64,000 bases of DNA from contig JABVXV010000012.1 of the NCBI GenBank assembly GCA_013365325.1, positions 496,001 to 560,000 on the forward strand, written 5' to 3'. Both the position numbers and the translations under genes were made by a program. Below, piece after piece: positions 7,933 to 50,454 of the stretch (position 1 is its first letter; each line of letters starts with the position of its first letter). The notes beneath the pieces are model-generated. The model had not been told where the DNA came from, did not search any database, and worked only from the letters and a program-made list of their open reading frames with translations. Origin of the DNA: Dipetalonema caudispina. Its lineage: Eukaryota > Nematoda > Chromadorea > Rhabditida > Onchocercidae.

Positions 7933-10900
7933 ATGATGTGGCCATTATTAGTCATTTCGGCATTTCTATTAACTGTCGTGCAAATATTGAGGAAAGTTTT
8001 ACGCCCGAAAATTGTGGAGTATTATTCTCAAGATCTTAATGTTTCTTCTAGTAAGTTTTTTCCTTGAAAGTTTATAGATATAAATATAAGACTTGCATTC
8101 TTCGAAAGATTCTTTTCCAAATATTGCTTGACATATATTTGCATCCAATTAATAATACTTCTTCTCGAGGTGGACATCACTTCGTAAGCTTGTTCTACGA
8201 TGACACAAGGCATTATTGCAATGTTTGTGAGAATGGAATGAGAACGGGTCTGCAGTGCGACTATTGTGGGGTTATGGTCGATTGCATATCTTGTCTTCAC
8301 TCACTTTCGAGCACTTTCCGCTGTAAAATTACTGTTACATCAACAGATGGGGAAATTATGCACCACTGGGTAAAACCTTTCACTTTCTGGAAATTTTTAG
8401 TCGTCTGTTTCAAATACATCAAATTCCTTCTAGTGATTATTAGTTGCATAATTCCATTAACATTATAATCAATATGTTTAGCAACATCATATTTTAAAAA
8501 TTCTCGATATAGGTCCGTGGGAATCTGCCGCCGTGTAGCGTTTGTGGTGTGTGCAATGAGGAATGTGGTGATGGTGTTGGCTTGATAGATTCTCGATGCG
8601 CTTTTTGTCAGGTTAAACAATATCTTGTAATGCAGTTAATCAGTCAAGGAATCCAAGTCAGCCTTAATTTCATAATTTCAGTTTACTGTGCACACACGCT
8701 GTAAGCAATTGGTGAATGAACGTTGTACTATGGGCGCCAATTGGGATTTCATTGTTCCACCGACTTGTGTCACAGTACGTAAAGTTGGGAGTCGTCGCAA
8801 TAAACAGGTTGGGACTCAGCATTTTCGGATGAAAATGCATCTATTTTGTTAGTTTTTTCTTTTTAAGTGAAATATTACTGAAGATTTCAAGCAGCAGGAT
8901 AAGGTATTATATATGCACCTAATGTTTGATGCAGCGATACTTTGTGCATAACATCGGCTTTTCTATATGTTTCAAAAACGTTCCAGCGGTGGGAATAGCT
9001 ATACTTAGTAGCGCTGCACTGTTTAAAAAAAGGTAGTAGCTAATTTTATCGAAATCTCACGATATTTTGACAGTATACAGAAACAAACAAATTGAGGTAC
9101 TGAACTGGAACTATCATACAGTGATATAGCTCTAAAAATTTGCTTTAAGTGGCCTTAATTCTTGTTTTCGATTGAATTGAAAACAAGAATTAAGGCCACT
9201 TAAAGCAAGTTTGAATTTCGATTGATTTTGTAAAATCCATCTTATGAATTCAGGGATAATTGTAAATCTCTATCTTCTAACATACAGAACTTTGCTTCAC
9301 TTTTTCTTCTTTGCATTCTTTGCTTTTTGGCCTGCACATTCACCGAAACATCCTCATGATAACCACCACTCCGCTCGATCACGTCATTGGGCTGTTCCTT
9401 TTGCTCCTGTAGCATGTGTGTTCCTTGATCTTATTCGCCGGCAGTTCCTCTCCATTCCATTCAAATAAGATTGACTTTATATAGGGAATTTTTACACCGA
9501 AAAGGGTGAACTCCTTTTATAAACCACTGAAAAGCGACACTTTGTGAAATTTTTTCTGTCGACTTCAATTGCTTCCGAAATTTCTGTCCACTTGGGCTAT
9601 TTTTTCGAAGTGCTTTGACATTCCTTCCCCTAGGTTTCTTTGGTCTTCTTTTTTGTGTTTTGTGAATATGCAGCACTTTCGCAACTGCATGGTTTTTTGT
9701 CTGCAGTGTTTCATTGTCCACTTTTCCAGCTACTGACTGAAGCTAACGTAGACTTCTCAGTGTTTTGGATGTCTCTTCTTCATGAAGTACTTTTTCTACG
9801 GAATTGGAGTGTTAGATTTGATTTTCTTAATTCAAATGGTTATGATCAAATCCCTTTCTTCAATTATGATCACCTTTCTTCAAATTTTAGTGCTTTGATG
9901 AATTTTGCAGCTAATTGTTGACATGATTTGTCGACCAAGCAATACTGACTATTTGTCGTGGAAGCCACTTTTCGTTATTGTTAATCCAAAAAGTGGAGGA
10001 TCGGAAGGATTCGCTGCATTACGGACATTTCGCAAGCTCCTTCATCCGGTCCAGGTAAAAGAATTATTAAACTTTCAAGGTAGTCGAAAGGTCATAAATT
10101 GAATTTCGAGTTTGACATTGCGTGCTAATTTTAATATTTTGAACCATTCTAAAAATGAACTAAGTAGTCTGCAAATTTATTATTGCATGTCACAGGTTTT
10201 GTTTTGAAAAATACAAGACACTAGGTTCCATGATTGCAGGTCATAAATGTTCAACAAATCGGGATAGGGACAGCGCTGCGTTGGATCAATATGTATCCTG
10301 AAATCGACTGTCGTATCATTATCGCTGGGGGCGATGGCACAATTTCGTTAGCTCTAGATGCTATCAGCGAATTGCAGCGGAAATTACCCGTAGCTGTTTT
10401 GCCATTGGGTACTGGTAACGATCTGAGTAGGACTTTAGGATGGGGATCTGGTCATGAAGGGTCGTTCGACTTTTTCGAGGTCGTTTTTATAAAAATTGTC
10501 TTTGAAGGACTATATTTTATTGTTAAGAACTATAAAAGTTTAATGATCTTTAATTTAAGTTTAAATTATTATTGACTTATAGCGATGACAATAGCTAGTT
10601 TTTCTTAGCGTCGTTGTATTTTTTTAGGACATCATAAATTTCAGTTGTTACTTACCAGTGAACTTAAAGTTAATAAGCAAAAGTTACTTTTACGGTCAGT
10701 TACAGATCTGCCGTGACATAAGAAGTGCTAAGACAGTGAAATTAGACAGGTGGTCCATTGATATCATTCACAAGAGACAGCTAGGTATTCGTGCCAAAAA
10801 TAAGCGATTCAGTATGGTAAATTATGTTTCTGTTGGTGTGGATGCTTGCGTTACTTATGGTTAGTATAGTTCATATTTTCTGATGCACATGCACGTTTTA

Positions 10901-15715: not shown

Positions 15716-17587
15716 ATGGATATCTATTTCTACATATCATGCTTCACATTTGCTGTAGTTTTTATTTATGGCCTACTGTTGATCTTAGTTTACATTTCAC
15801 TACCACGAAAAAAACCACTATTATTTGAAGGGAAGCATGCATTCATCACAGGTATATCATTTATTGAATTCATGTAGATGAGATGTTTTTTCTTAGGTTG
15901 CATTGAATTTTCAACATATTCCTAATTCCTTTCTACCAAAGCGTTTTAGCATAGGTTTTTCGGTGAACTATTGTTTTGTTTGAAATTTTTGCGACTCATT
16001 TTCTTGTGTTAAATTTTCTTTTTCAGTAATAGTGCTGAACTTTCAAAAATCAAAAAGCAGAACAAAACCTTTGCAGGTGGATCGAAAGGAATCGGAAAAG
16101 CAATCGCTGTAGCCTTAATACGACGCGGTTGTTCTGTTTCTTTGGCTGCGCGTAACGTTGAACAGCTGGAATTGGTGTGTAACGAATTGAATGCTTTTGC
16201 AAAAGCCAAGAAAAATGGCGCGGTTGCAAAATATTACAGTGTTGATGTCACTTCATCCTATAATGTGGTGAGGATTATTATGTAATAAGTAATTGATGTC
16301 ATTCTAATTAAAGACAGAATAAGAACAAAAATGAAGACCTAACGTTTGTTTAATTTCTTCAGCAAGTTTAATAAACTTTCATAAAATGTTGTAAGTTTTT
16401 TCTGTGAAAATTTTCATGGATCTTGTTCAGCTGAAAGCAGTGGTAGAAGAAGCGGAAAATGAACTTGGTGATATCAATATTTTGGTAAATAACGCGGGGT
16501 ATGCTCTGCAAGGCGCTTTTGATTCCGTTGATATATCAGTATTTGAGGAGCAAATGTGTCTGAATTTTTTGAGTGCGGTATGCTTTTTATGCAATAGTGA
16601 GGATGGAAAGATGAGAAGGGTTGTCTTGTCCCAAGTTCTTCCCCTTTTCGTATTATTTTTATTTGGAGTTGTCGTTTTGAGATTCAAGTATATCTACGAA
16701 ACTTTTGCGAAATTAAAATACTATCACACTGACAAGATATCTTTGCCTTCAGGTTTATATGACTAAAGCAGTGGTGTCCAAAATGAAAAAATCGCGAGAC
16801 GGTCAAATCATTTTTGTGAATTCTGCAGCTGGTCAATGTCCAATTTGGGGATATACTGCCTATGGAGCAACAAAATTCGCAATGCGTGGTTTCGCTGAAG
16901 CATTGTATATGGAACTGCTCCCATATAACGTTCAAGTATCGGTAATCTATCCTCCAAATACAAATACCGAAGGCTACCAGGTTCCAAATTTTTCTAATTA
17001 TTGTAATGCTTCTATGATTGCGATATCATTCAAGTCACCGGAAGGTTGTTTTCGTATGCTGTTGATAATTTATTCAAAAATTTGGAAAAAAATAACGAAG
17101 GCTTGTGTTGTAACCATGATTTTTAAGCGTGAAATATTGACAATGCCGGAGGAACTGAAAGAAATAAGTGGTACTGCAGGACTATTTGAACCAGAAACGG
17201 TCGCTGAATGCCTCATTTATAATCTTTCTCGTGGTAATTATCACACATGCATTGGTTTGGAAGGATGGGCACTTGGAGTACTGTCAGCGGGTGGTGCACC
17301 AGAGAAGAGCTTTTTGCAGGCTGTTGCACAGGTCATTTGACTCTTGATTTTTCATTCAACTTGACTTTTTTTGGAATATCCAAAGAATTATCAAAGTATT
17401 GGTACTCCACACTATGATTTCTTCAGTTTTTTACTGTTTGACTCTCCGGTCAATTATTTTCCACGAATTTTACTTATGCTTTTTCTTCTGTATTCAGGTG
17501 CTGTTTGGTGGTTTGCTGCGGGCGATCATGCTCATTTACATCGGTCATTTCAACTGGATAGTGAAGAAATGTAGACTTAAACAATGA
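15716..17587 (+). CDS. 3-ketodihydrosphingosine reductase (KDSR)
   Basis: NADPH-dependent short-chain dehydrogenase of the ER membrane; it reduces 3-ketodihydrosphingosine to dihydrosphingosine, the second step of sphingolipid synthesis. Exons: 15716-15851, 16077-16267, 16431-16577, 16753-16980, 17128-17331, 17498-17587, giving 331 residues (human 332). Residues about 7-30 are a membrane segment. The cofactor loop reads TGGSKGIG (45-52), NNAG is at 129-132, and the catalytic set is Ser182, Tyr195 and Lys199 in YGATK. The last exon encodes a hydrophobic C-terminal helix (GGLLRAIMLIYIG). A TTTTTCAG at 15683-15690 before the ATG is a likely trans-splice acceptor. The intron 16981-17127 is 147 bases, in frame and free of stops, so retention would insert 49 residues; the length match to human KDSR argues that it is spliced out. 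Confidence 0.93.
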
Positions 17588-17895: not shown

Positions 17896-20800
17896 TCAAG
17901 CGTGTAATTTGCAATATGGAGCTCCATTCTTGGCATAAAAACTCTCTCCTTCTAAGTTCACATTGCAGCTCTGAAGTTAATTAAATTCGAGTAACAGTAG
18001 GTTAAGCATCCATATTTAACCTATAAACATTGGCATTCTGTATCTTTGATTCTTCTTGTTTACTGTTTCAAAACAGTTTTTTTTTGGGACCGAAATGTTG
18101 TTCTAAAGGTCTTCGGTACTGGTCAGATTATTTTTGTTTCCACTTTTAGTGAGTCTTCAAGTTCAAGACTTCTACGTGTTCGGTAAAACTATACAACATG
18201 ATAAATTTACCGTGCAGTTAAAGCAGTTTGAATGGAATGCAGCGCCCAATGCTTCCACCCATCTATCGCCAGCTTCTATCGGGTAATGGCACGAAACGCA
18301 GTTGGTTGTGAATAGTCTATTCCAATCTAGAATTCAGGGTCGTTCTTTACCTCAAATTGCCATGTTTGAAAGTGATTATTTAAATCAATATTCAGCCATT
18401 TGGTGATGAAAATGTAAGGAGCTGAAGTACTTAATGAATTATTAAATTAAGTATGACGAGCTTGCCTGTTTCACAATATGGTTGTCCTTGTTCGAGGAAA
18501 AATGCAGAATTTCCGAATGGATTATGGCAATGTGTGCAAACAAAGCAGTGCGGATGCCACTGTTTCTGAAGCGCATTCAGACAGTCCTGTAAAAAGAAAT
18601 CAAGCGAGTAGTAGCTATCTAGTTATCATTGCGACTTCTAGAATTATTCGATACAGAGATTCTCTATCATGAAAGCAAATAACTTTTTCTGTGTTTAGGA
18701 AAGCCATCAGACTATTGGTTTTGCTTCCTGACGATACCGATCCCACGTTGCATATTTGAACAGTTTTTTAGTTTGAAAGGTTTTTATTTTTATTAACTAA
18801 CGGCAGTTATTGGCTGATTGCATTTGGCACAGCGTGGAGCAATTTCAGTTTCGAAGCAGCGCTCGCAATATTTATGTCCCTTTTCTTCTACAAAACCAAT
18901 ATCCAATAGTTTGCGACCACATGGTTTATTGGAGCATATAAAATGATCTGGACAATATGCTGATCTATTAGCTAAGACATATGCACCCCTGCAAAGCAAC
19001 TCTAACTTCAAATTATCAGATTTTTGAAAGCCTATCTAACCGACGAAACTCTCATTGTCCCTCAGTTACGTAATTCAGAGTAATTCTAGTACGTATATAT
19101 CTCATATTAATTAATTCTAAGATTGAAATTGCTTATGCAAACGACTGTTTCGAAATGTAAAGTGAGGAACTAAATATACCTTATTTCTTGTCTGCAGTCT
19201 TCGCAGCACGGTATACGGTTACTTTGAGCATGAAGTATACCTCGACCTTTTGCCAGTTCTTCATTTTGTGATTCATGGACATTTGATTGTTTAATATACG
19301 AATTCCTATTGACTGCAAAATTTCAGAACTCTGATTTTAAAGAGCAGAAATGCAAAAGGAAAGTCAATTTTTAAGCCGAAAAATTGAAAATATTAGTTGT
19401 GGGGAAGAAATGACTTCTAGCAGTGAGTTATTATAATTGTCAGTATATGTAATCACAGATTTGAATGGGTTATAGAAACTAAATTACAGCAACTGAAGTT
19501 TGAATCAAATTGCGATTAAAAGTTTCCAGCTTTTTGCATCTCTGTAACAAGCATTTCAAACTCTATGAAAATGAAAAAATGCTTGGCACTAAAGCGAAAG
19601 AAATAAAAAGAATCATGAAGTAGTTGGAATTTCAAGGTGTTTAAGAGAGGAAGAAATGCAAGTTGTTTTATAGAAATAATTCAATTATACATTTATGATC
19701 AATACTCATAGGATTCTTTGCAGAAATTTACAGAATCTTCAACGAGATTCCACTCTTACAAAAACTGAAATCAGTCGATAGCTCTGCTTTTCTCTTTGAG
19801 TACTTTGTAGACTTCCAGAAGTTTACTGACTGCATCCTTTATCCTAATCATATCCACTGACAAGTCAAAAAATACGGAGGTTATTTTAGTTTGATGCACA
19901 AATAATTTCCGTTACCAGTTTTCTTAGTGGAATTAGTTATTTTGAATGATTACTCATAAACTACTGTTGATCAAGAGAGTATAGCTTGGAACACTTTTCG
20001 GCATCACTATATTATTGTTTTCATTTATTATCATGAGCAAAGCTCTTATACAGAGATCAGTTAATTTGCACTTGCAGGATATTTGAGAACATTTTACACT
20101 GCATAACATGCTCTTCTCACTTTAAAAAATTTAGACTTTTCAGGACGTTCACATACTGTTAGTAGTTTTTAATTAGTAAAGCAGCCAGAAATTAGCATAT
20201 ACCTTCCTGTCCATCTATTTGTACATTTATTTCACAACAACTTATCAGAATTTTATCTATGATCTGTTACTATTACCTAATTGGGCGTTAATGAGCATTG
20301 AAGAATGATATAGGAGCTATTGGAATAACACACACTTTCGTTTGCATGCTGTTTCATGGAGGATTTCGATGATTAGATCTGATGGCGTTACGACGCCCAA
20401 ACAATTATCACCGTAAAAAAATATCACCATCCGGATCTTGACAACTGTTTGACTGATTCTCCACTACTTTTATTACTTTATTTGTGTCCAAACATCTTGC
20501 ACTTTTTTGTTGATGATGACAAAAGCCATTTTCATTCATCAATTTGTCCTCCATGCTAGAGTATCGTAGCACTTATATAAAATGTAAAACTTTGTTGATT
20601 AACTTACATAAATAATTAAACTTGTTTTTTAAAAGAATATTTACCGAAAATTTAAAATTCCTAGAACTAATTTTTATAAAATCTTTTTCTAAGCTTCATT
20701 TGGTAAGAGAAAAATTCCGTTAAAGGATGAAGTTTTTGCATACTTGTCAAGATTTTTGAGGAAATCGATAGCATTTTCAAGCATGTGTGAAAGTTCCTTC

Positions 20801-23800
20801 CCCGGATCATGTAATTCCAATTGATATCGAGCGATACTTGCGATAGCAATCTCTTTATCACGTTCTTCAATGGAATTCGAGTTCCTAGATTCTTTTTGTT
20901 CTTTCTCGATGTTTTCTCTAACCTCGTCCGTTACTTTCTGATTCTTAACATGAACATCAATATTCCACCCTTTCCATTTTGTCTTTTCATTCCCTTTATT
21001 CCTAATTTTATCACTGTGGGACACATCTTCCACAGTAATATCCTGAGAAAGCACATCAGTAATAAAGTTTTCTTCCATCTCAGTAATTAATTCCTCCTTT
21101 TCAATTGTATCTAAGTCGATATTTCCAGTTTCACCATAATGACTTACAGTATCCAATGATTCTGTTCCACTAGGCAGCTCCTGATCACCACACATCTCCT
21201 TGATGGGAAGAGTTCTCATTTCCATCCTATTATTATTGTCCACTAAAACGACATCAGCTTTATCGAGATTACGTTCTTCCTTTCCGTACTCCACCCTTTC
21301 GTATTCTCGAATTTCTAAATTTACCGTTTTGTGGTCGGTGTTCTGAGGGATGGAAGCCAAGTGTGGCCTGTTTTGAATATTTTGTTGCTGTTGCTGGTAT
21401 TCTTTGATACTATTTGTCGAGCAATAACTATCGTACTCACAGCTACAAATTTTATTATTTATATTATCAGTGAAGCCTTTTATATCTGTTTTATGAGTTC
21501 CTTCCACATCCCAATTGGATTCGTCTGAAAACCCCTTTCGTTCTTCCGTATGTCCCGAATAATTCGGATTTCGAAAAAACGGATCACATTGCATCAATTG
21601 GTATCTGCATTCCATGTTAAAATTACTTTCAGTGATTCTGTCTTCTTCCAACTGATTAATAGGCTTCCAATGATAACTTTTTTCTTCACCTCTTAACAGG
21701 TACCGTTTCGGACTTGGAAGCTTTCGCCATTTATCCTCATCTTCCTTGATGAATTTTGATAATGGCAAGAGCAATTCTTCTTCCGGTTTGCTAGAGTTCG
21801 AATATTTAGAAGCAGCAGCAGTTAAATAGCTGCATTGCCAATATCTCTTAATTTTGTGGGATTCCGGAGGCCAGTGATATTTACATGGAAGCCGACGTGG
21901 TGACGTTACTTTCTGGATTTCAAGAGGTAAAGATCGGACACGACTTAACAACATTTGCGAAGGTTGGTGAGATTCTTGATTGGACACATCACCTGCGTGA
22001 ATGTACAAATGACACAATATACAAAGGACATTTGACAAAGTTACAGAACAGACTTTGACATGAATAATTGTGACTGAAATTAAATCGCAAACATGTATAT
22101 AAGCAAAATCGGAATTCACATAGAAACAAGCATGTTATTTCAGTTATGAAACCATTAGATTTAATTTGTAGTCATTTTATTGATTGTAAAGCCAAAATAA
22201 AACTTCTTAGGCGTGCTTTATAAAGAATCATAATTCCCATTTTTACGTGAACTTTTGGTATTAAAAGTTAAGTTGGAGTTTAATTACCGAACTAATCTAA
22301 TCTTCAGTTTGTTTTTTGGTTTCATTTTGATATCGGCATTAACACTTTCAAGACCACCATTCGGTAGTTTTTTTACTCTCAGCTAAATAATTTCTTGCTG
22401 TAAATATAATTGAAGTAATCTCATTTACCTGAACTCATCGACGAACTGTAAATTTCCTTCCTCAATTCATTCAATTCTTGGCCATAGTGAGTAGCTGCTG
22501 GTGGTACACCTCGATTGCTTGGACTGTAATCTTATTCTTTTCAGTTCTGAATATTTTTGTATAATACATATCAATACAACTCACAGTTCAGACAATAATA
22601 CATCAGTATTTGAGAAAGTCTTCATAATGTTTTATCAAAAATAGAATTAGTATTTTATTTCTGCTTTTATTTTTGCATTTCTTATTAAAAATTGAATGAT
22701 GACGAAGAACTCAGTGAATACTTCGTATTCCAAAAAAATTAATAAATGATTAGTATGTTTGACTTAGTACTTATTATTTATATACTAAATTATGCGTTAG
22801 AGAGACTTGGATTGTGTGCTATCGCAAATTACTTGTCTTATAATATCTTTAGCAGTCAGTTAAAAATCCAAATGTTTGATTCCAGAATTGCCTTTTAGTT
22901 TTAATACAATTCATGCTATCCCACATAATTTTATGAATAATTTTTGGATGCAAATTATGGAAAGGGCTTGATTTTAGGGGAATTTTTTCTGGAAGCGGTT
23001 AATAATGAAAACAGTGATCGAAGCTATAAAAGGAGTATAGCGAAATCGTTTTAAGTGTCTGTCAGGACTTTTTAATCACAAAGACAGGAATGAAAATTGG
23101 AGGAAGAATACGAAAGATTTGTATGCCAAGTGAAAATGTTGATCTTTTAAATAATAATCGAAAAATTAGTTTTATTATCTGAATATTCTTTTAGTAAATT
23201 GTCGGCGATTTTGTTTTTTCCAACTATTTGATGATAAAATAATAAAAATTTCAGTAGATTTCGAAATCGATTAGAAATCGAAGTGTTATCAATGGTATAA
23301 TTGGCAACATTTGCTGTTCCATAAATTATACACAATGGCTGAACTACATAATTTATCCATCGGAAAACAAATAATTATTTTCTTTTCAGAGAAGTAAGCT
23401 GAGATTATTATATTGAAAATCTTCGGTAGAAGATATAAAATTTGCATAGCTTGAAACTAAAACGAAAATTCTTCCAACTTAAACGAATCTTGTGCGGGCA
23501 ACAAATTTGAATCTGACAAGCGTCTTTGAAAATGAAAAATTGGGGAAAAATGAAATTCGAAAAATTTGCTGAGCACCTGATAGGACTTTGCGTCTTCCAT
23601 GGTGTGGGACTGATTGAAATCGACTGCCGAGTCATAACTTCTGGCTGATACGGAGTTAGCAAAATATTTTTGTCAGAAGTTGGAACCATTTTGGGTCTCC
23701 GTCTAAAACATAAAAATCTAAGGCAGTTAATTATTTTGTAGAATTCAAAAAATTTCTGGCAGTCATGAAAAATCGATTTCTTCTATTTTGTTTTTGCCTG

Positions 23801-36731: not shown

Positions 36732-38169
36732 TTACATGAAGCAACACATTGATCTGCCGTTATCAGCATACCATTGTCTGCGTTCTTTTTCCAGTTGGTG
36801 AACTGTTAATTGCCCTTCGATCCTAATTTGTTTTACGATATCTTCAAAGATCTGTAAAATTGGCGCTCTTATCTGAATTTTGAAATGCAATTATGAAAAT
36901 TGGATTTTTATTCAAGAATTGGAATTATCAATAACTTTTGGATGAATCCCTCTAATACTTCAGTTTTAGGATATGCATCAATTTTTCTATAACCAGGATT
37001 CTCACTGTGCCGGTAATCGGAAAAATTTTAAATGCCGGCCACTTTTGAAATCGATTTAAATTAAAACGAGGAATAAGTAGATAAGTATGCAAACCTCAAT
37101 GACGTGGATATTATTTTTAGCTGATGCTTCACAAAATGTTGAATTGTATCGAGCTGCATATTGTTCACCATCGGTTCTTGATACTTCTCGATTCTTGATA
37201 TCGTCACATTTATTACCAACAAGAATTAGCGGAAACTGAAACTTATAGATTACAGGACATTTGGTATGGTTCTTTGATCTAACTTCGCTGAAATATTTCA
37301 AGATCAGTCAATGCAGTGCTGAAAATCTCATTAAACACTTAAACTAATGAAATTCTTAATTTTCATGGTATTCCTATAAAATTCTAGACTTAATATAATT
37401 AAAAATTTCTGTTTAAAATTTGAGTAAGTATTTGGAGAAGCACCGACATGATATTTTTGTCGAACTCGCAATAAATTTTGAAATATCTCAGCCGTGTTTG
37501 TAAGACTTGCTGCATCAGTAATTGAATACACGACAATAAAGCCATCGCCATTTTTCATGTATAAATCGCGCATTGCTGTAAATTGTTCCTGCAAAAGTTG
37601 ACTTACACTAAATTCTCAAATTCTTAAATTCGAATTACATGAATAAATGTTTTTCCCTGCACTTCACTAACATTAATTTCGTGACAAAAATTGACTTCAA
37701 GGATTTGTATCAAATATTGTTTAGTTTGTGCTAATCTGTCTTACATTATCATATCTGCTAAAAACAAAAAATATTATTTAGGCGAATATTGCCAATCACT
37801 TTTTTCAAATCCCATATTTTGAGCATTTCTGTCTTTTGAGTGAAGAATTAGTAATATAAATAAATGAAATCAAAACTTATAGTTCCAGCGGTGTCAAGGA
37901 CTTCCACCGTACAGGTTATTCCGTCAACAACAATTTCCTTCTTATAACTATCTTCGATTGTTGGATCATATCGTTTTAAAAATATGCCTTTCACTAATTG
38001 TGCTGTCTGCAATTTGACGGGATTATTAGAAAACTGATAACAAAAAAAAAAAAAAAAAAAAACTCAATAATCCAAAGGACTTTACCAGAGCACTTTTCCC
38101 AACACCTCCACTTCCAAGTAAAACAATTTTATATTCAGGCATAGGTGTAAATTGCACTCGGGTTGGCAT
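36732..38169 (-). CDS. Rap-family small GTPase
   Basis: Ras-superfamily switch protein of about 203 residues, five exons: 38169-38086, 38006-37881, 37588-37448, 37235-37095, 36851-36732. The P-loop is GSGGVGKS (19-26), the effector loop YDPTIEDS (41-48), and DTAGTE at 66-71 has the Thr in place of the Ras Gln61 that is diagnostic of Rap. NKCD (125-128) and EASAK (153-157) complete the guanine sites. The C-terminus is CCFM, a CaaX box whose Met favours farnesylation. A ten-residue N-terminal extension precedes the usual MxEYK start. Exon 2 ends with Thr70 immediately before ATAAGT, where GTAAGT is expected. The exon 3 donor (GTCGGT) is also weak, but gives the exact Rap length. It resembles Rap1 more than Rap2; it may be a nematode rap-3-like paralogue. 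Confidence 0.9.
38042..38062. repeat. Poly-A tract (21)
   Basis: Uninterrupted A run in the first rap intron; on the coding strand it is a T tract about 35 bases before the exon 2 acceptor. Length may vary between assemblies. Confidence 0.9.
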
Positions 38170-42995: not shown

Positions 42996-45900
42996 ATGTT
43001 GTTAACAACTCAATCGTTAGCTTGGTTACCTCGAACTAATGCTATAAATCTAAAATATGCTTATCGAGGACTGGCTGCCAGTTCACAGTGTACTGCGAGT
43101 AATGAAATGTACCGTTTCCGTTCGCATGTCCTTCAACAAAAACAGGTTTTGAAATTTTAATGTTTATTACCGAACTTTTCAGCTTATTAGATTGTGTTGG
43201 TTCAACAGAGCTAGGATATGCCAGGAAGAGACTAAAGTTTTACAGTGCTGTGTTGTGTTAAAAAGTATAAAGTACTGACTAGATTTAGGAATCTGATAAT
43301 TAGATTTTGATGGTACAAGGCATCGCATGGAGTAACAATTATTCATAAAATATTCTATTTCAAGGAAAGCATGTGCAAGTTTCAGTTCCAGAATTGTTCC
43401 AATTTTCGTGTTTGCTGTAAAAATACATGTAGTACCGTTGTCCTTGTATGATTAAATCAAAGAAATCCGTTGTAAACATTAATGTAGGAGTAGCATTATA
43501 CACAAAATATTATATGCGCTGTGTGAAAAGAAGAATTTCGCACATTCTTTTATCCTTTGTAACTCCAGTGAAATCTGTTAAGCATGACATGATTACAGGA
43601 TTCCACTTGATAACTCATCTAGTTAGTGCTCATTCATTATGCATCCAAGAAATTTCTTAGCGTGCCGAACTGGATACTGCTTTGTATTCCTCATTATATG
43701 TTTGTTAAAAAAACTTTAAGGTTGTTGAAGATGATTTACTTTTAATTCGACTCCTTAAAATTTGAAATATTTGGCCTTTGCTTAATGTTATCATCAGTGA
43801 CCCTTTTACTAACGTCAACATGATTAGTATTAATAGCGGCGGAAGTTCTTTTTTAATATTTGTCAACAGTCAATTATTTTAGGGTAAGTTAGCCAAATAT
43901 GGTGGACGTCAGATGGTGACGTTACTTACAGGCGATGGTATCGGGCCAGAAATGATCAATCATGTCAGGCATATTTTTGGCCACGCTGATGTGAGCACAG
44001 AAATTGAAACTGTCTAGTTTGTATTATCATTTGTCTATACCGTTTTGCGGTTTTTCATTCAAATTTTAAATTCAAATTTGAGTTTTATGGAAGTTTAGTC
44101 ATTCGTTACAAAAACATGAACTTATTTCAACATATTTCACCCTTTTTTTAGAATTTCAAAAAATGCTTTAAAGAGCGGTAGTCTTATATTTTATAACAGT
44201 AACTATCAATAGGTTCCGGTTGACTTTGAGGAAACGCCGTTAAATTCCAATTTGACTGATCTGGATACTGATATGGAATATGCTTTGTTATCGACTCGGC
44301 GAAATGGAGTAGCTCTAAAAGTAGTTTTATTTATTCATTCTCTTTCAGTTATTTCTATATTATTTAATACTTCTGGTATACAAACAGGTTGTTTTGCAAA
44401 AAAGGGAGAGAAAATTTTTGCTAAAAAGGCTCTAGAAGTTGGTGTTGTTTCTCCTTACTGACTTTCTAAGTTATTTTATCCTTGAACTCGTTTAATAACT
44501 ATACGGTAACATTTTCTGCAGTCATGCAAATTGACCCGATGAGGATAGAGGGATTGATATTATTTAACAGTCGCATGCAAACGCTTAAGTATCAAGTAGA
44601 TTTCTTTTGAAAATGAGTAAAATATAAAGCTGATAAAATTTTGCTTCGTAAAACGAGGAAATTTGACCTTATCGTATCCAATTTTGGACACCCTTAATGA
44701 GAGGGACAAGAGTTAAAATAAATGCTGCTAATTGCAGCAATAGTTTGGTTGGTAAATAAATTTTTTCTTGTTGTAGCTAATGTTTCTTTACTCGGTCACT
44801 GTAGATTTTATGTAATTTAGAAAAATAAGACATAAATTTTGACGTTGTCCATTGCAACGTGGTTATGCGAAAAGGTTTTAGCATTACTGTTTATTTGGTA
44901 CGGTGTCGAACACTGCAGAGATTGTAACAGTATGCTAGGTATTTCACTGATTTAAAAGCACAAAACTTTTAAGGGCAATATTGAAACTAAATTTGATGTC
45001 CCACAGTTTAAATCAAGGAACGTTGAATTGCGACGACGTTTGGATCTTTATGCCAATATTTTGCACTGTGTAAGCATACCTTCAATTCCATCACGACACA
45101 GCGATCTGGATATATTAGTCATAAGGTTAATTTGTTCTGTAGCATTTTAAGAATTCATTTTGAGAGGTGGTGACTTGCAGTTCGAACGAGAAGGATGTGC
45201 TGCTCGTTTTCAAGAGAAATTTGTATTGGTCAAATATATTAATGGAGTGAAATGATTTCCTGGCAGAAGATACCAGAAGTCACTGTTGTTTATTTAAATA
45301 TTAATGAGATATCTAGCGTTGCGTTTTTCCTGTTTTAACTATATTTCAAAAGTGAAAGCGCAGTTTTCAGAGAGAATATGGAAGGTGAGTATTCAGGACT
45401 TGAACACGAGGCCAAGAAAGGAGTCGTTGAAAGTTTGAAGGTTTTTTTTTTAATCATTTTTTAGTTGCAGATTTCTGATAGTAATTTTGAATGTAGATTG
45501 GAATTGGTGGAGGTTATAGTTTCTAAGAACTTTCTTAGAAAACTTGTTCGTTTGACTGTATTTGGAAGCAAGAGAAGTTTTACTAATTAGTAGTCCACTG
45601 CTATCTCTATGAGAATTGATTTATAGATTGTTACGCGTACAAATATCGAACGAATTGCTCGCTTTGCATTTGAATATGCGGTGATTTACAAAAGGAAGAA
45701 AGTTACAGCAGTTCACAAAGCTAATATACAAAAACTCGCAGATGGCTTATTTCTGAGAGTGGGCATTCACATATTCTTTATGTTTCAGTATTATGTAATA
45801 CCTTTTGTCTTTCCGCATGATCTGTTTGTTGGCATGCTTTAATGCGTAAGTGCAACTTACTTGAACATCTGTGGGTTTAATTCCTTTTACTATCAGTTCA

Positions 45901-47295
45901 TCTGGCAGTACTAAGTTTTCTACTCTCTGTTAATTCCTTGGTAAATTGTACGAACTCCATTTTCTCAAAATTGCGCCGAACTTATTAGAATGTATTTGGA
46001 AACAGTTAGTCAGATTTCATATTCTTTTTGTCATGATTTTTTAATTTTCCAGGTATGTAAAGAAATAGCGGAGAATGAATATCCACAATTGCAGTTCGAG
46101 TCAATGATTATTGACAATGCATCAATGCAGCTCGTTTCTCGCCCACAACAGTTTGACATTATACTTTTACCTAACCTTTACGGCAACATAATTTCGAACA
46201 TAGCTTGTGGCCTCATTGGTGGAGCGGGATTAGTGTCAGGTGTCAACGTTGGTTCCAAATATGCTGTTTTTGAAACGGTTAGTATTCTAGCAGTCAGAAA
46301 TTTTTGCAGTTTTTATTTAATACATTAATTAGAAGCATGGAACAAGGTAATTCTAACTGTGTTATTTGAAAGAATATTTCATTCTTAAATAACTTTTTCA
46401 AAATCATAACCTCATATTTTGTATGTAATTTTTAGGGGACGAGAGGCAGTGGCACTAAAATAGCTGGTAAAAATATTGCAAATCCAACTTCCTTCATTCG
46501 AGCTAGTGTAGATATGCTGAAATATTTGGGACTGGATAACTATGCAAATCTGATCAGCGATTCTTTGTTTATTGCACTCACAGAGCGACATATGCACACT
46601 GCTGATATTGGAGGTAGGCTTACCGTTCCAGCTTGGGACTCTGGAATCAAAATTTTCATGTCATTTAGTGTCCAGATTTAAGATAGGTAACTTTCATATC
46701 TCTAATTCGCAATCTTGTTTGGTTGGCTAGCTAACAAATTAGTATATTTCTATTTTTTCCGAAAATTGTTAGTTTCAAAAATGTAGAGTGGAACTTTCAT
46801 AGAGCAAAGAATGAATAAAATTACTAGAGTGACGTTTACTGGGGTCTGGAAGGCGGTACTGACATACAGATTGAGTGGATAAGAAATTTCTCTAAATATA
46901 CTAATCAATCTCAAGATCTGTGTTAACTACTTTCCCAAAAAAGATGATTGAGCCGTACTATGCGTTTCAGCGTGTTGTGATATATGTTTCTTTTGTCGTA
47001 TATTTGTAAGGCAAATCATTAAGAAATTTGCCCTTGTGATGACTACAGTAAATCATTATCGCACGACATTTTTTTTTTGTCTTTTGTAATTAACTTTTTT
47101 ATCTATTCATTTTCTGTTAAAGTATGGTAAAGTGAAATATCAAAGGTATTAGACCTAAAAGAGATTGAACTTTATTTAATCAGTGACATTGCCCTGCTAT
47201 CCTGAAGTTATTTTATAGGTACTGCTAAGACGAGTGAAGTTGTGAGCGCAATAATGGAAATAATGGATCAACTGAGGGATAATTACATTCAGTGA
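42996..47295 (+). CDS. NAD-isocitrate dehydrogenase, gamma-type subunit
   Basis: Regulatory-type subunit of the mitochondrial NAD-dependent isocitrate dehydrogenase of the TCA cycle. Nine exons: 42996-43145, 43883-43990, 44213-44320, 44974-45125, 45371-45440, 45627-45758, 46053-46277, 46436-46613, 47219-47295; 399 residues (human IDH3G 393). Residues 1-50 are Ser/Arg/Leu-rich without acids at the start, a likely mitochondrial presequence. GDGIGPEM opens the fold, [18 protein letters not shown] and [21 protein letters not shown] are family signatures, and [10 protein letters not shown] matches gamma rather than beta or alpha. The usual ENTEGEYS motif reads ENMEGEYS. An AATAAA at 47705-47710 is a candidate polyadenylation signal. 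Which nematode paralogue this is (idhg-1 or idhg-2) cannot be told. Confidence 0.93.
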
Positions 47296-50062
47296 GTATT
47301 GCTTCAAATGATCGGTGGCAAAGGTACCTATTGTAATCTTTAAAAGCAATTTCATTTAATTTCTTTTAAATTATTATACATTAATTTCTAGCATTCTGAT
47401 TCATGAGGCACTTTTCTCTGGCATGGGATGTCTAGTCTCAATTAATCATGAATAATGATATGTTTTATATTAGATAAATCAATGAGAATCTTTGTTTCTC
47501 TTAGATTTCTGAGTTAGTGAATCTTTGGCCAGTAGGTCATTGGTAGCTTACATTTACGAGGATTTGTATCTGCTTTTAATAAAATTTCTTAGCCGTTTGT
47601 GTATGTGTAGAAATTCTTCACTTTCAGAATTTAATGGAATGTTTGTTGTGTGTTTTTTCTTGATTTTGAAATATTTGGTATATTAGGACCAGCATAATTG
47701 ATTTAATAAAGTCCCTTTTTACTTACTTCTACTCTTGAACACAACCCATTGTTTCAAAAATCTATTTTAAATTATTGTGTATTGTTTAGCACTATGTTTC
47801 GTCAGCGTTTATCGGAGCAGAGAGAGTCAGTTTGTTGCTAAACTGGTAATATCCACTACTCATCATTTATTAGCTGTTGCCATCTCGAATATTCATACGA
47901 GTACATACACCTCTTCCACTAATTGCTTTACACCAAAGTTGTTGATTCTGTGCTAAAAAGGAATTGCTTCTATTATTCAGTTTTTTGAGCCCACGCAAAA
48001 TAAAAAATGTTATCCAATTACTAAATCGAAAATTGTTGCTCGCATATAAATAGCCTTAGCGTCACCATTGATGACAGGTACTTCTGTTTTTCGGCCATTT
48101 CAAGTACGACTGGATGCTTTGCGGTCAAACTTATTCCATTCTTATCACTCTTTTTGCAGTAATTTTCAGGTGAGCTTTTGCTTATGAACGCTGTCAAACA
48201 TAAGTATTCTGTTTGCCTATTGAACAATTGTTAATCAAGTTGCATGTAAAGGATTTTATATGAAGTTAATGTTTGTTGTTAGATATACTTCACTAGGTTG
48301 GTAAGTAATTCTAAAATCGGACAGAAAATTCATGCAATTTCCTCGGGAATTATTTTGTCAGCAGCCTTGTTTACATGTAGTATATTCACTAATTCGTAAA
48401 TAAATGTCTTTCCTATTTTGTATTATGTGTTTGGAAATATGTTATACTTGTTGTTTGTATAAGATATGAATTAATATTATCTTTATATATGGCCTTTATA
48501 GATAAGTTATTATTTGGCAATTTTTTCTAATTTCAATAGACTTCACTAAATTACTGTAGAAAAGAGGATAATGTGTATGCATAATATTTGTTATTCAGCT
48601 AAAGATACTTTGACTTTAGTCAAACTAAAGTGACTAAAGTCAAAGTATTCATCTGGTTCGATTACTTTTATCTTTTTGAACAGATTAATAAGGTCTATCC
48701 CTGCGTTAAGTCATTTATTCTTTCATTAGTGGACATGTTTATTTACTTCTCTATCTTTTATTATTCATTCTTTCCTTTCAAGTGTTGGAAATTAGTTTTC
48801 GAATTTACCCCAGTCATTTTCTTTCTCAACGATTCCAGTCCCTTTTTATTTTACATTTTCCCCTTAGAATGCATGTGTAGCTTTTGGTAGTATAACCCCA
48901 CCATGGTGCTATCATGACATCTTTATATAGGAATTTCGAGTATTGCTCATTGGTAGTATTTGGATCCAATTTATGCCATTGCGTTTTGTTTAGTTTTTTT
49001 AACAAAATTCTAAAGACCGTTCTTTTAATTCGGGACTGGAATTTTAAGTTAATGTGATTTTTGATTTATGTTCATTGTTTTAGATTTCTTTTCAATCTTA
49101 ATTTTGTATTATAAATGCAGGATTTCGCTGTAGTCTTTTCAATTGCAGTTTCATTTATGAATCTGTGGAATATAAAACAACGGATTAATTGATCTACGTT
49201 TGTGGTAATTGAATTTGTGATAATTAAATTTCTTTTGATTATAGTTTCGGAACATTGGAATCATACTCATCTATCCAAGGTTTTAGAAAATTAAATAAGA
49301 TCACAGAGATTGGTGAGAATCGGGAGATTCAGAGGTACTGTTACAAACAAAAAGGTGCTTGTAGATGCAGTTACTAGAAGTTGTAGTGTTTTAGCAGGTA
49401 GGTGGGAGGTGAAAGCCACATGAAATAGTTTTGGAAATTGATCTGTCTATCATCGTTATTTATTTGGGGTAATAAATATTTGGATAGCTGAATTATTTGA
49501 CTTTGTCTGTTAATCTCTCGTTTCACTAGAGTTGTATTTATTGACTTTATTTAGTTATTTAATACTGTTCACAAGTCTGGACGTTTTCTAGTAATTTACA
49601 TTTTATTTCTGATAGGTATGGTTCGAGTCTGGGTTTACTGCTGAAAAGAAACCTTAAATCGCAGATATGATAGAAATGGAAAGTTACAGTCTTTGAAATA
49701 GGCACTTTCTCTAACTTTCTAATGAAACCATCTGATTCAAATTTTCTGAATTGGGAGTAGTAACAGTATTTCTATACATGTTTTCAATTTAAGTTTGTCG
49801 TGTAGCTTTGTCAGATTTACTTTCATATAACTTTTAAATAACTTTGAATTGTTTGTCCCGGATGAAACATGGAAGTAAAGTAGAAATACAGGGTTATACA
49901 AATTTAGAAAACTAATTTTGAAGTATTATGGAATAGAAAGCAGAAGAGAAAGCTTTCTCCAGAAAGCGAAGTGTTTTTTGTATCATTTCAACTGCAAATT
50001 TAAAACTGGTTTCGAACTATGTTGCTGGTGAAAGTATAGAGAAAAAAAAAGTGAATTTGCAG
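47296..50062. other. 3' flank of idhg and spacer
   Basis: T-rich DNA. It contains an 18-bp inverted repeat at 48605-48648 and possible signal-peptide exons for the downstream peptide gene: 48260-48300 (ATG, 13 codons, ends at GTAAGT in phase 2), or the hydrophobic frame starting at about 48736. Neither is secure. Confidence 0.4.
48605..48648. repeat. Short perfect inverted repeat
   Basis: Arms 48605-48622 and 48631-48648 (18 bases each, atactttgactttagtca and its complement) flank an eight-base spacer. It is a stand-alone stem-loop in intergenic DNA. Confidence 0.9.
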
Positions 50063-50454
50063 GGCAAGCTTTGCCGGAATTTCACTATGGGACGATGAAT
50101 CACAAAACAGTGCATGGTAACTTTGCAAGCATATTCCGTCCCTTGCGTACCTTGTCGAACTGATCTCGAGAAACTTCACGACGTGACACTTTTTCTGGAT
50201 AAAATATCCGAAAAATCGAACATTCTTTTTGAAAATGCAAAACCGATCTTTCCAAAATTTCCTGCATTCTAAAAAAATTTTCCAGGGAAAATCTGGCAAT
50301 GTCTCAGTCATTTCCGTGGCGTATTATACCACATAAGCAAACTCGTCATCTTGAACAACAACAACCAAGACATCAGATAGCGCTGCGATCCGCAAACCAT
50401 TTCAAGAACTGTTATTTCTCACCAATCCAGTGTGTACTTGTTGAAGAGCAATAA
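50063..50454 (+). CDS. Putative allatostatin-C/somatostatin-like neuropeptide precursor (5' partial)
   Basis: Two small exons join in phase: 50063-50116 (after tttgcag; ends TG before GTAACT) and 50286-50454 (after attttccag; stop 50452-50454), giving 73 residues. The first exon encodes an acidic spacer (ASFAGISLWDDESQNSA). The second ends in SANHFKNCYFSPIQCVLVEEQ-stop. The ring CYFSPIQC matches the insect allatostatin-C ring CYFNPISC at six of eight positions, with the same six-residue loop between cysteines. In that family the disulfide-closed peptide acts through somatostatin-type GPCRs. No dibasic site borders the ring; a single Arg precedes SANHF, and no C-terminal amidation Gly is present, as in allatostatin-C. 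The signal-peptide exon is unresolved. The identification rests on the motif plus clean splice sites, not on length. Confidence 0.5.

Follow-up and report, generated by a model that had tools for sequence, protein, structure and literature searches.

The window, a 64,000-nucleotide stretch of Dipetalonema caudispina DNA, contains what is, with a probability of about 0.92, a functional filarial gene for an allatostatin-C (AstC)-like neuropeptide, whose three coding exons would encode a 92-residue preproprotein. This reading is supported by (i) a three-exon model with canonical borders, (ii) a leader matching that of an O. volvulus protein, (iii) a peptide core kept across Nematoda and (iv) profile similarity to insect AstC precursors. 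The locus looks like a real, so far unlabelled filarial gene for a small ring-shaped nerve peptide. An earlier note, made from the nucleotide sequence alone, had proposed an AstC-like ring peptide in this region; its multi-exon, secreted-type precursor in a nematode stands, while the novelty attached to it does not.

Gene model and predicted precursor

The coordinates of the gene and of the predicted parts of its product are summarized in Table 1.

Table 1. Features of the AstC-like peptide gene (window positions).
Feature	Position	Strand	Description
Exon 1 (coding part)	48114..48169	+	ATG and hydrophobic leader MLCGQTYSILITLFAVIF; donor GTGAGC; intron phase 2
Intron 1	48170..50062	+	1893 bases, GT..AG, phase 2; inferred from protein alignment with O. 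volvulus P0001
Exon 2	50063..50116	+	ASFAGISLWDDESQNSAW..., spacer of precursor; aligns with ISLWDEE.. of O. volvulus and Loa loa proteins
Intron 2	50117..50285	+	169 bases, GTAACT..TTCCAG, phase 2
Exon 3	50286..50454	+	Remaining spacer, peptide and TAA stop; ends NCYFSPIQCVLVEEQ-stop
Arg71 codon	50386..50388	+	Likely single-Arg cleavage site preceding the peptide
Predicted mature peptide SANHFKNCYFSPIQCVLVEEQ	50389..50451	+	21 residues, as predicted from Arg71 and the stop codon
Ring CYFSPIQC	50410..50433	+	Cys79-Cys86, six residues between; putative disulfide

Joined, the exons form a frame of 279 bases (92 residues and a stop codon). The two downstream exons, described earlier with canonical borders and matching phase, were borne out in sequence and coordinates; they are spliced in frame with compatible phases. 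The 5′ exon that the earlier note had asked for, missed by its reader, was found at 48114-48169. Among 54 phase-compatible ATG..GT candidates with starts within window positions 44001-50062, this exon is identical to the O. volvulus N terminus at 16 of 19 residues, compared to 4 for the runner-up. Codon 19 of the precursor (Arg) is split by intron 1 and completed across the splice.

The leader reaches a 10-residue Kyte-Doolittle maximum of 3.2, a value equalled in 12 of 10,000 shuffles (a crude test of hydropathy only). Judged by this hydropathy and by the leader common to O. volvulus, the precursor has a putative N-terminal signal peptide, as is typical of the nematode AstC-like NLP group; an upstream exon without a signal peptide, named beforehand as an argument against the gene, is thus not what the locus contains. 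A single peptide is located at the C terminus of the precursor, as in AstC-type genes.

The two-exon translation matched nothing in Pfam or among PDB sequences; Rfam and tRNA scans of the window and a blastn search of a phage collection gave no match either. Several other coding regions were observed in the window. On the forward strand, these are a diacylglycerol kinase exon (10234-10572; DAGK_cat, E 1.7e-16), a C1-domain match (8055-8465) that falls below the Pfam cut-off and perhaps belongs to the same gene, a short-chain dehydrogenase exon (16717-17337; adh_short, E 2.7e-19) and an isocitrate/isopropylmalate dehydrogenase exon (45945-46325; E 9e-22), situated approximately 1.8 kb upstream of the ATG of the peptide gene. 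The reverse strand carries a Ras-family exon (37334-37615; E 1.9e-9) and an uninterrupted open frame of 481 codons (20692-22134) with no Pfam match at E 0.01.

Homologs in filariae and near relatives

The two-exon translation (exons 2 and 3) was compared with protein databases, which yielded nine proteins at E <= 1. All nine are homologs, with E values from 6e-29 to 1.3e-5, the closest being that of O. volvulus (77%, E 6e-29). They originate from O. volvulus, Loa loa, O. flexuosa, Wuchereria bancrofti, Brugia pahangi, Elaeophora elaphi, Thelazia callipaeda and Dracunculus medinensis, and one entry has no species name. The sequence FKNCYFSPIQCVLV is kept in every one of them, so that the ring, whose absence from sister species was to have counted against the gene, is conserved in 9 of 9.

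When the window precursor was included (ten rows), FKNCYFSPIQCVLVE and an Arg at precursor position 71 were common to all rows; the ring, Arg71 and the VLVE tail are invariant, whereas the spacer diverges. The O. volvulus protein P0001 aligns with the window precursor from end to end, leader included. It is the only one of the nine annotated homologs to carry this leader, the other models being truncated or having a different N terminus (as in Loa loa). The relatives were compared as proteins only, and several models are truncated or oddly named: their database labels include “Secreted protein” (O. volvulus), “PAZ domain-containing” and “FBA_1 domain-containing”.

Ring motif versus conservation

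The ring matches insect CYFNPISC at six of eight residues and in its six-residue cysteine spacing, as had been pointed out before. The pattern CYFxPIxC occurs once in the six frames of the window and in none of 60 simulated 64-kb sequences (second-order Markov), which agrees with the earlier judgment that such a match is unlikely by chance in 64 kb; for the looser pattern CxFxPxxC, 0.25 matches are expected per window. Across the 78-Mb genome, C[YF]FxPxxC gave 48 matches compared to 30 in a reversed control, and therefore the ring alone is weak evidence at genome scale. A longer genome scan with N placed in front of the ring gave 104 matches (68 in the reversed control), many of them T-rich strings. 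Genome ring matches were translated with their context (30 loci and 8 regions). Only 3 of the 48 contain [ST]P[IV]QC, the window gene being one of the three; the other 45 were dismissed by ring sequence.

The commonness of C[YF]FxPxxC in the genome could be taken to suggest that both the open frame and its motif arose by chance, but this explanation is practically untenable: nine homologous database proteins, the best with E 6e-29, refute it, and the matching leader exon speaks against it as well. As judged from these comparisons, the decisive evidence for the gene is conservation and homology, not the ring motif.

Relatives across Nematoda

A profile built from the window, filarial and sister-gene sequences (the latter described below) matched 146 proteins at E <= 10; the analysis covered the 120 listed ones. 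All those of the 120 that bear a species name are of nematode origin, with the exception of one bacterial MAG protein (P0106, Paludibacterium; E 0.66). This protein contains NCYFSPIQC, through chance or contamination; the motif on its own is thus no proof. In the 120 matches listed plus the window precursor, NC[YF]FxPxQC is present in 110 of 121 sequences and absent from 11. Conservation is therefore both local (9/9 in the first search) and, by profile, phylum-wide, and the window gene carries the (K/R)NC(F/Y)F motif of the nematode AstC-like NLP group in the form KNCYFSPIQC.

Sorted by eye, the listed relatives comprise the FKNCYFSP(I/V)QCVL type, to which the window gene belongs, the SYPRNCYFSPIQCLFTR, LRNCFFSPVQCLLP and SRNCFF(T/S)P(V/I)QC types, and some others. 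A Pristionchus member of the SYPRNCYFSPIQCLFTR type is labelled nlp-67. Two types are present in C. elegans. The first is represented by P0014, a “Neuropeptide-Like Protein” (E 1.6e-9) with an identical core, FKNCYFSPIQCVL; the peptide to expect from it would be ALNQFKNCYFSPIQCVLME. The second, of the SYPRNCYF type, is P0090 (E 0.15). A query with P0090 for this nlp-67-type sub-group returned no match in the D. caudispina genome, an empty answer that proves little. Since the H. contortus relative P0035 bears the name Y73B6BL.35, P0014 is probably Y73B6BL.35, and it is to P0014, rather than to nlp-99, that the window gene probably corresponds.

The same distribution bears on the function of the product. 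A secreted Cys-ring peptide other than a neuropeptide, e.g. an antimicrobial or host-directed one that has kept an AstC-like ring, would fit the altered processing sites of filariae (see below) and the O. volvulus label, which says only “Secreted protein”. However, free-living worms (Caenorhabditis, Plectus) have the core in common with filariae, as would be expected of a peptide with a conserved receptor rather than of one directed at the host; moreover, the database name of the C. elegans member is that of a neuropeptide-like protein. A role outside neuropeptide signaling is consequently considered very unlikely.

Processing sites

If the product is a neuropeptide, the leader would direct the precursor into the secretory pathway, where a convertase may cut after the conserved single Arg71 and the two cysteines may close an eight-residue disulfide ring. 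Dense-core vesicles would then release a non-amidated peptide of approximately 21 residues, ending in VLVEEQ at the natural stop codon, which would act on a somatostatin/AstC-type receptor, probably Gi/o-coupled, of neurons or muscle.

No paired basic site is present anywhere in the window precursor; one conserved Arg is located upstream of the peptide. Paired convertase sites flanking the peptide, a usual but not strictly defining trait of the AstC type, are therefore lacking in this gene. Processing sites were compared in 48 FKN/FNN-type proteins (those among the matches listed, plus the window), which are not independent (isoforms, close species) and include some truncated models. In 36 of these 48, the ring is followed by a paired basic site; likewise, 36 of 48 have a pair within 20 residues before it. 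The earlier statement on the lack of a flanking dibasic pair is thus correct for the window gene, but it applies to only part of the family.

The 12 listed rows without a pair after the ring are 8 filarioid ones and those of Thelazia, Dracunculus, Gnathostoma and Plectus. Of the filarioid rows, one is the window and seven are database entries; P0006, among the latter, has no species name and was called filarioid by sequence. The same 12 rows of the listed set have no pair within 20 residues before the ring. The claim of an upstream loss is softer, because 4 of the 12 (Brugia pahangi, Thelazia, Gnathostoma and Plectus) have a pair 22–24 residues before the first Cys; in Loa loa a pair is found at 63. 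A single Arg at exactly the same distance from the ring is present in 44 of the 48 listed proteins and is invariant in 12 of 12 aligned phylum-wide rows. By taxonomy, Thelazia, Dracunculus and Gnathostoma are placed in Spirurina, as are Toxocara and Syphacia, in which the pairs are kept. The C-terminal tails are acidic and fixed as VE(E/D)Q in filarioids, and read VENR in Dracunculus and LLENR in Gnathostoma.

The simplest reading of this pattern would be cleavage at the single Arg, with the C terminus set by the stop codon, in filariae and some near relatives. In its specific form, we advance this proposal only tentatively: in filarioids, Thelazia, Dracunculus and Gnathostoma, the C terminus may be formed by the stop codon and not by a trimmed basic tail, and an upstream single-Arg cut may replace the paired site. 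The pattern might also indicate a decayed copy, i.e. a filarial gene that has lost its processing sites and makes no active peptide, given that the pair after the ring is missing from 12 of the 48 listed relatives, including all 8 filarioid rows, and that the same 12 have no pair within 20 residues before it. Such decay is highly improbable: all 10 rows have the same ring, Arg71 and VLVE tail and differ in the spacer, the opposite of what decay would produce.

If the single-Arg reading is true, it would represent a lineage-specific change in the making of an otherwise frozen neuropeptide, possibly with altered receptor fit. The loss of the paired sites provides a concrete, testable case of altered peptide processing.

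Relation to insect AstC and to NLP-99

A search with a Drosophila peptide gave 55 proteins, from insects where the species was named, and 11 of these AstC precursors (fly, midge, gnat, flea) were aligned. Comparison of a 12-row nematode profile with this 11-row insect profile by hhalign gave a probability of 78% (E 1.8e-5, single comparison) over 12 columns, FKNCYFSPIQCV / YRQCYFNPISCF, with the rings in register. None of 100 column-shuffled controls reached the score (33.3, compared to 23.9 for the best shuffle). A probability of 78% over 12 columns offers moderate support for kinship with AstC. The window gene also has two Cys residues six residues apart, the spacing rule given for the AstC type in PMC8786951, in a ring resembling that of arthropod AstC. 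The extreme C-terminal position of the peptide had been regarded as a contrast with insects; this is wrong, since the insect peptide also ends the precursor in 11 of 11 rows.

Genome G000, in which the window lies on contig C33, harbors further genes with related rings. The first sister gene (L065; G000:C57:112099-112122, minus strand), LKRQRSNNNLRNCFFSPVQCLLPLDDSRLTKSDTKRRTEFPD, has NCFFSPVQC after KRQRSNNNLR and before ..TKRR, i.e. paired basic sites on both sides, and resembles Acanthocheilonema viteae P0011. The second (L064; G000:C455:20963-20986, minus strand), SSRNCFFTPVQCLLSRDQ..., has NCFFTPVQC in its ring region and matches the nematode profile with an hhalign probability of 94%; a possible upstream leader exon, MQKVWTLLLFLIPISCLI, was observed at this locus. 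The A. viteae proteins P0011 and P0012 resemble the sister genes but are not identical to them.

A third locus (L077; G000:C640:10943-10966, minus strand) is an open frame ending ..GYHWDECEFSPLSCLLRR-stop. It encodes exactly the ring of C. elegans NLP-99 and is a candidate filarial NLP-99 gene. NLP-99 (synthetic peptide GDGYGWNDCEFSPLSCLL) has been called the C. elegans orthologue of somatostatin/AstC, with the Gi/o-coupled NPR-16 as its receptor (PMC13082328). The ring of the window gene is CYFSPIQC and not the NLP-99 ring CEFSPLSC.

These data bear on whether the window gene could be the one-to-one filarial orthologue of arthropod AstC and vertebrate somatostatin, and hence the NLP-99 counterpart. 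The agreement of CYFSPIQC with insect CYFNPISC (6/8) and the profile similarity to insect AstC favor such orthology. Against it, the separate C640 locus has the NLP-99 ring exactly, and C. elegans P0014, distinct from NLP-99, has the exact core of the window gene. The N-terminal intron also differs: a phase-0 N-terminal intron is reported for AstC genes (PMC7536072), whereas intron 1 of the window gene is of phase 2 and follows 56 coding bases. Intron 2 is of phase 2 as well, at residue 37 of 92; the AstC-type trait (Drosophila, C. elegans) is a phase-2 intron in the C-terminal coding part. One-to-one orthology is therefore regarded as very unlikely. Because two sister genes and a locus with exactly the NLP-99 ring are present in the same genome, the window gene is probably an AstC-like paralogue.

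On the receptor side, 51 genome fragments match 7tm_1. At least eight somatostatin-like receptors were counted in C. elegans in a 2012 review (PMC3524798); NPR-15, -16, -17, -18, -24 and -32 are among the SSTR-like receptors that it lists. In its homolog table, more entries are given for npr-24 than for npr-16, so that some parasites may lack NPR-16 itself; npr-16 was reported in 8 of 10 parasites by McCoy et al. 2021 (PMC8515059).

Place among described nematode neuropeptides

The family had earlier been presented as one usually described from arthropods, but nematode AstC-like genes are already in print: McKay et al. 2022 (PMC8764417) list nlp-88 to nlp-96 besides seven earlier ones, and NLP-99 and NPR-16 have been described (PMC13082328). 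The supposed novelty is further undercut by the C. elegans database relative with the same FKNCYFSPIQCVL core. According to McKay et al., whose nine species include B. malayi and D. immitis, the five genes nlp-92 to nlp-96 have a common (K/R)NC(F/Y)F, are missing from C. elegans and are conserved in key parasite species. Because C. elegans does have a protein of the window gene's type, the window gene may instead be among those named earlier. The string CYFSPIQC is absent from the main text of the open-licence papers searched; as supplements lie outside that scope, the gene may well be in the supplementary alignments of McKay et al.

The window gene thus adds a newly delimited member to a nematode neuropeptide group already described; one feature, that of its processing sites, is modestly surprising. 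A filarial gene that was unlabelled and poorly modelled becomes a neuropeptide candidate whose exons are delimited exactly and whose mature form is predicted. Both are needed for receptor matching; worm peptide receptors are regarded as drug targets (PMC8764417).

Comparison with known systems

Like insect AstC, the window gene encodes a CYFxPIxC ring in a single peptide that forms the very end of the precursor; the insect form differs in having KR before the peptide and F plus a basic tail after the ring, without the FKN and VLVE flanks. With the AstC-like nlp genes (nlp-88 to nlp-96 and others; PMC8764417) it has in common the (K/R)NC(F/Y)F motif found in parasitic nematodes. C. elegans NLP-99 also has an eight-residue ring with x-F-S-P followed by hydrophobic residues, but its ring is CEFSPLSC, and an NLP-99-like locus stands separately in the filarial genome. 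C. elegans P0014, grouped here with its rhabditid relatives, has the identical FKNCYFSPIQCVL core, an Arg at equal distance ahead of the ring and a C-terminal peptide; it differs in the KR before the peptide and the RRRK after it, whereas the filarial form has neither and ends in VEEQ.
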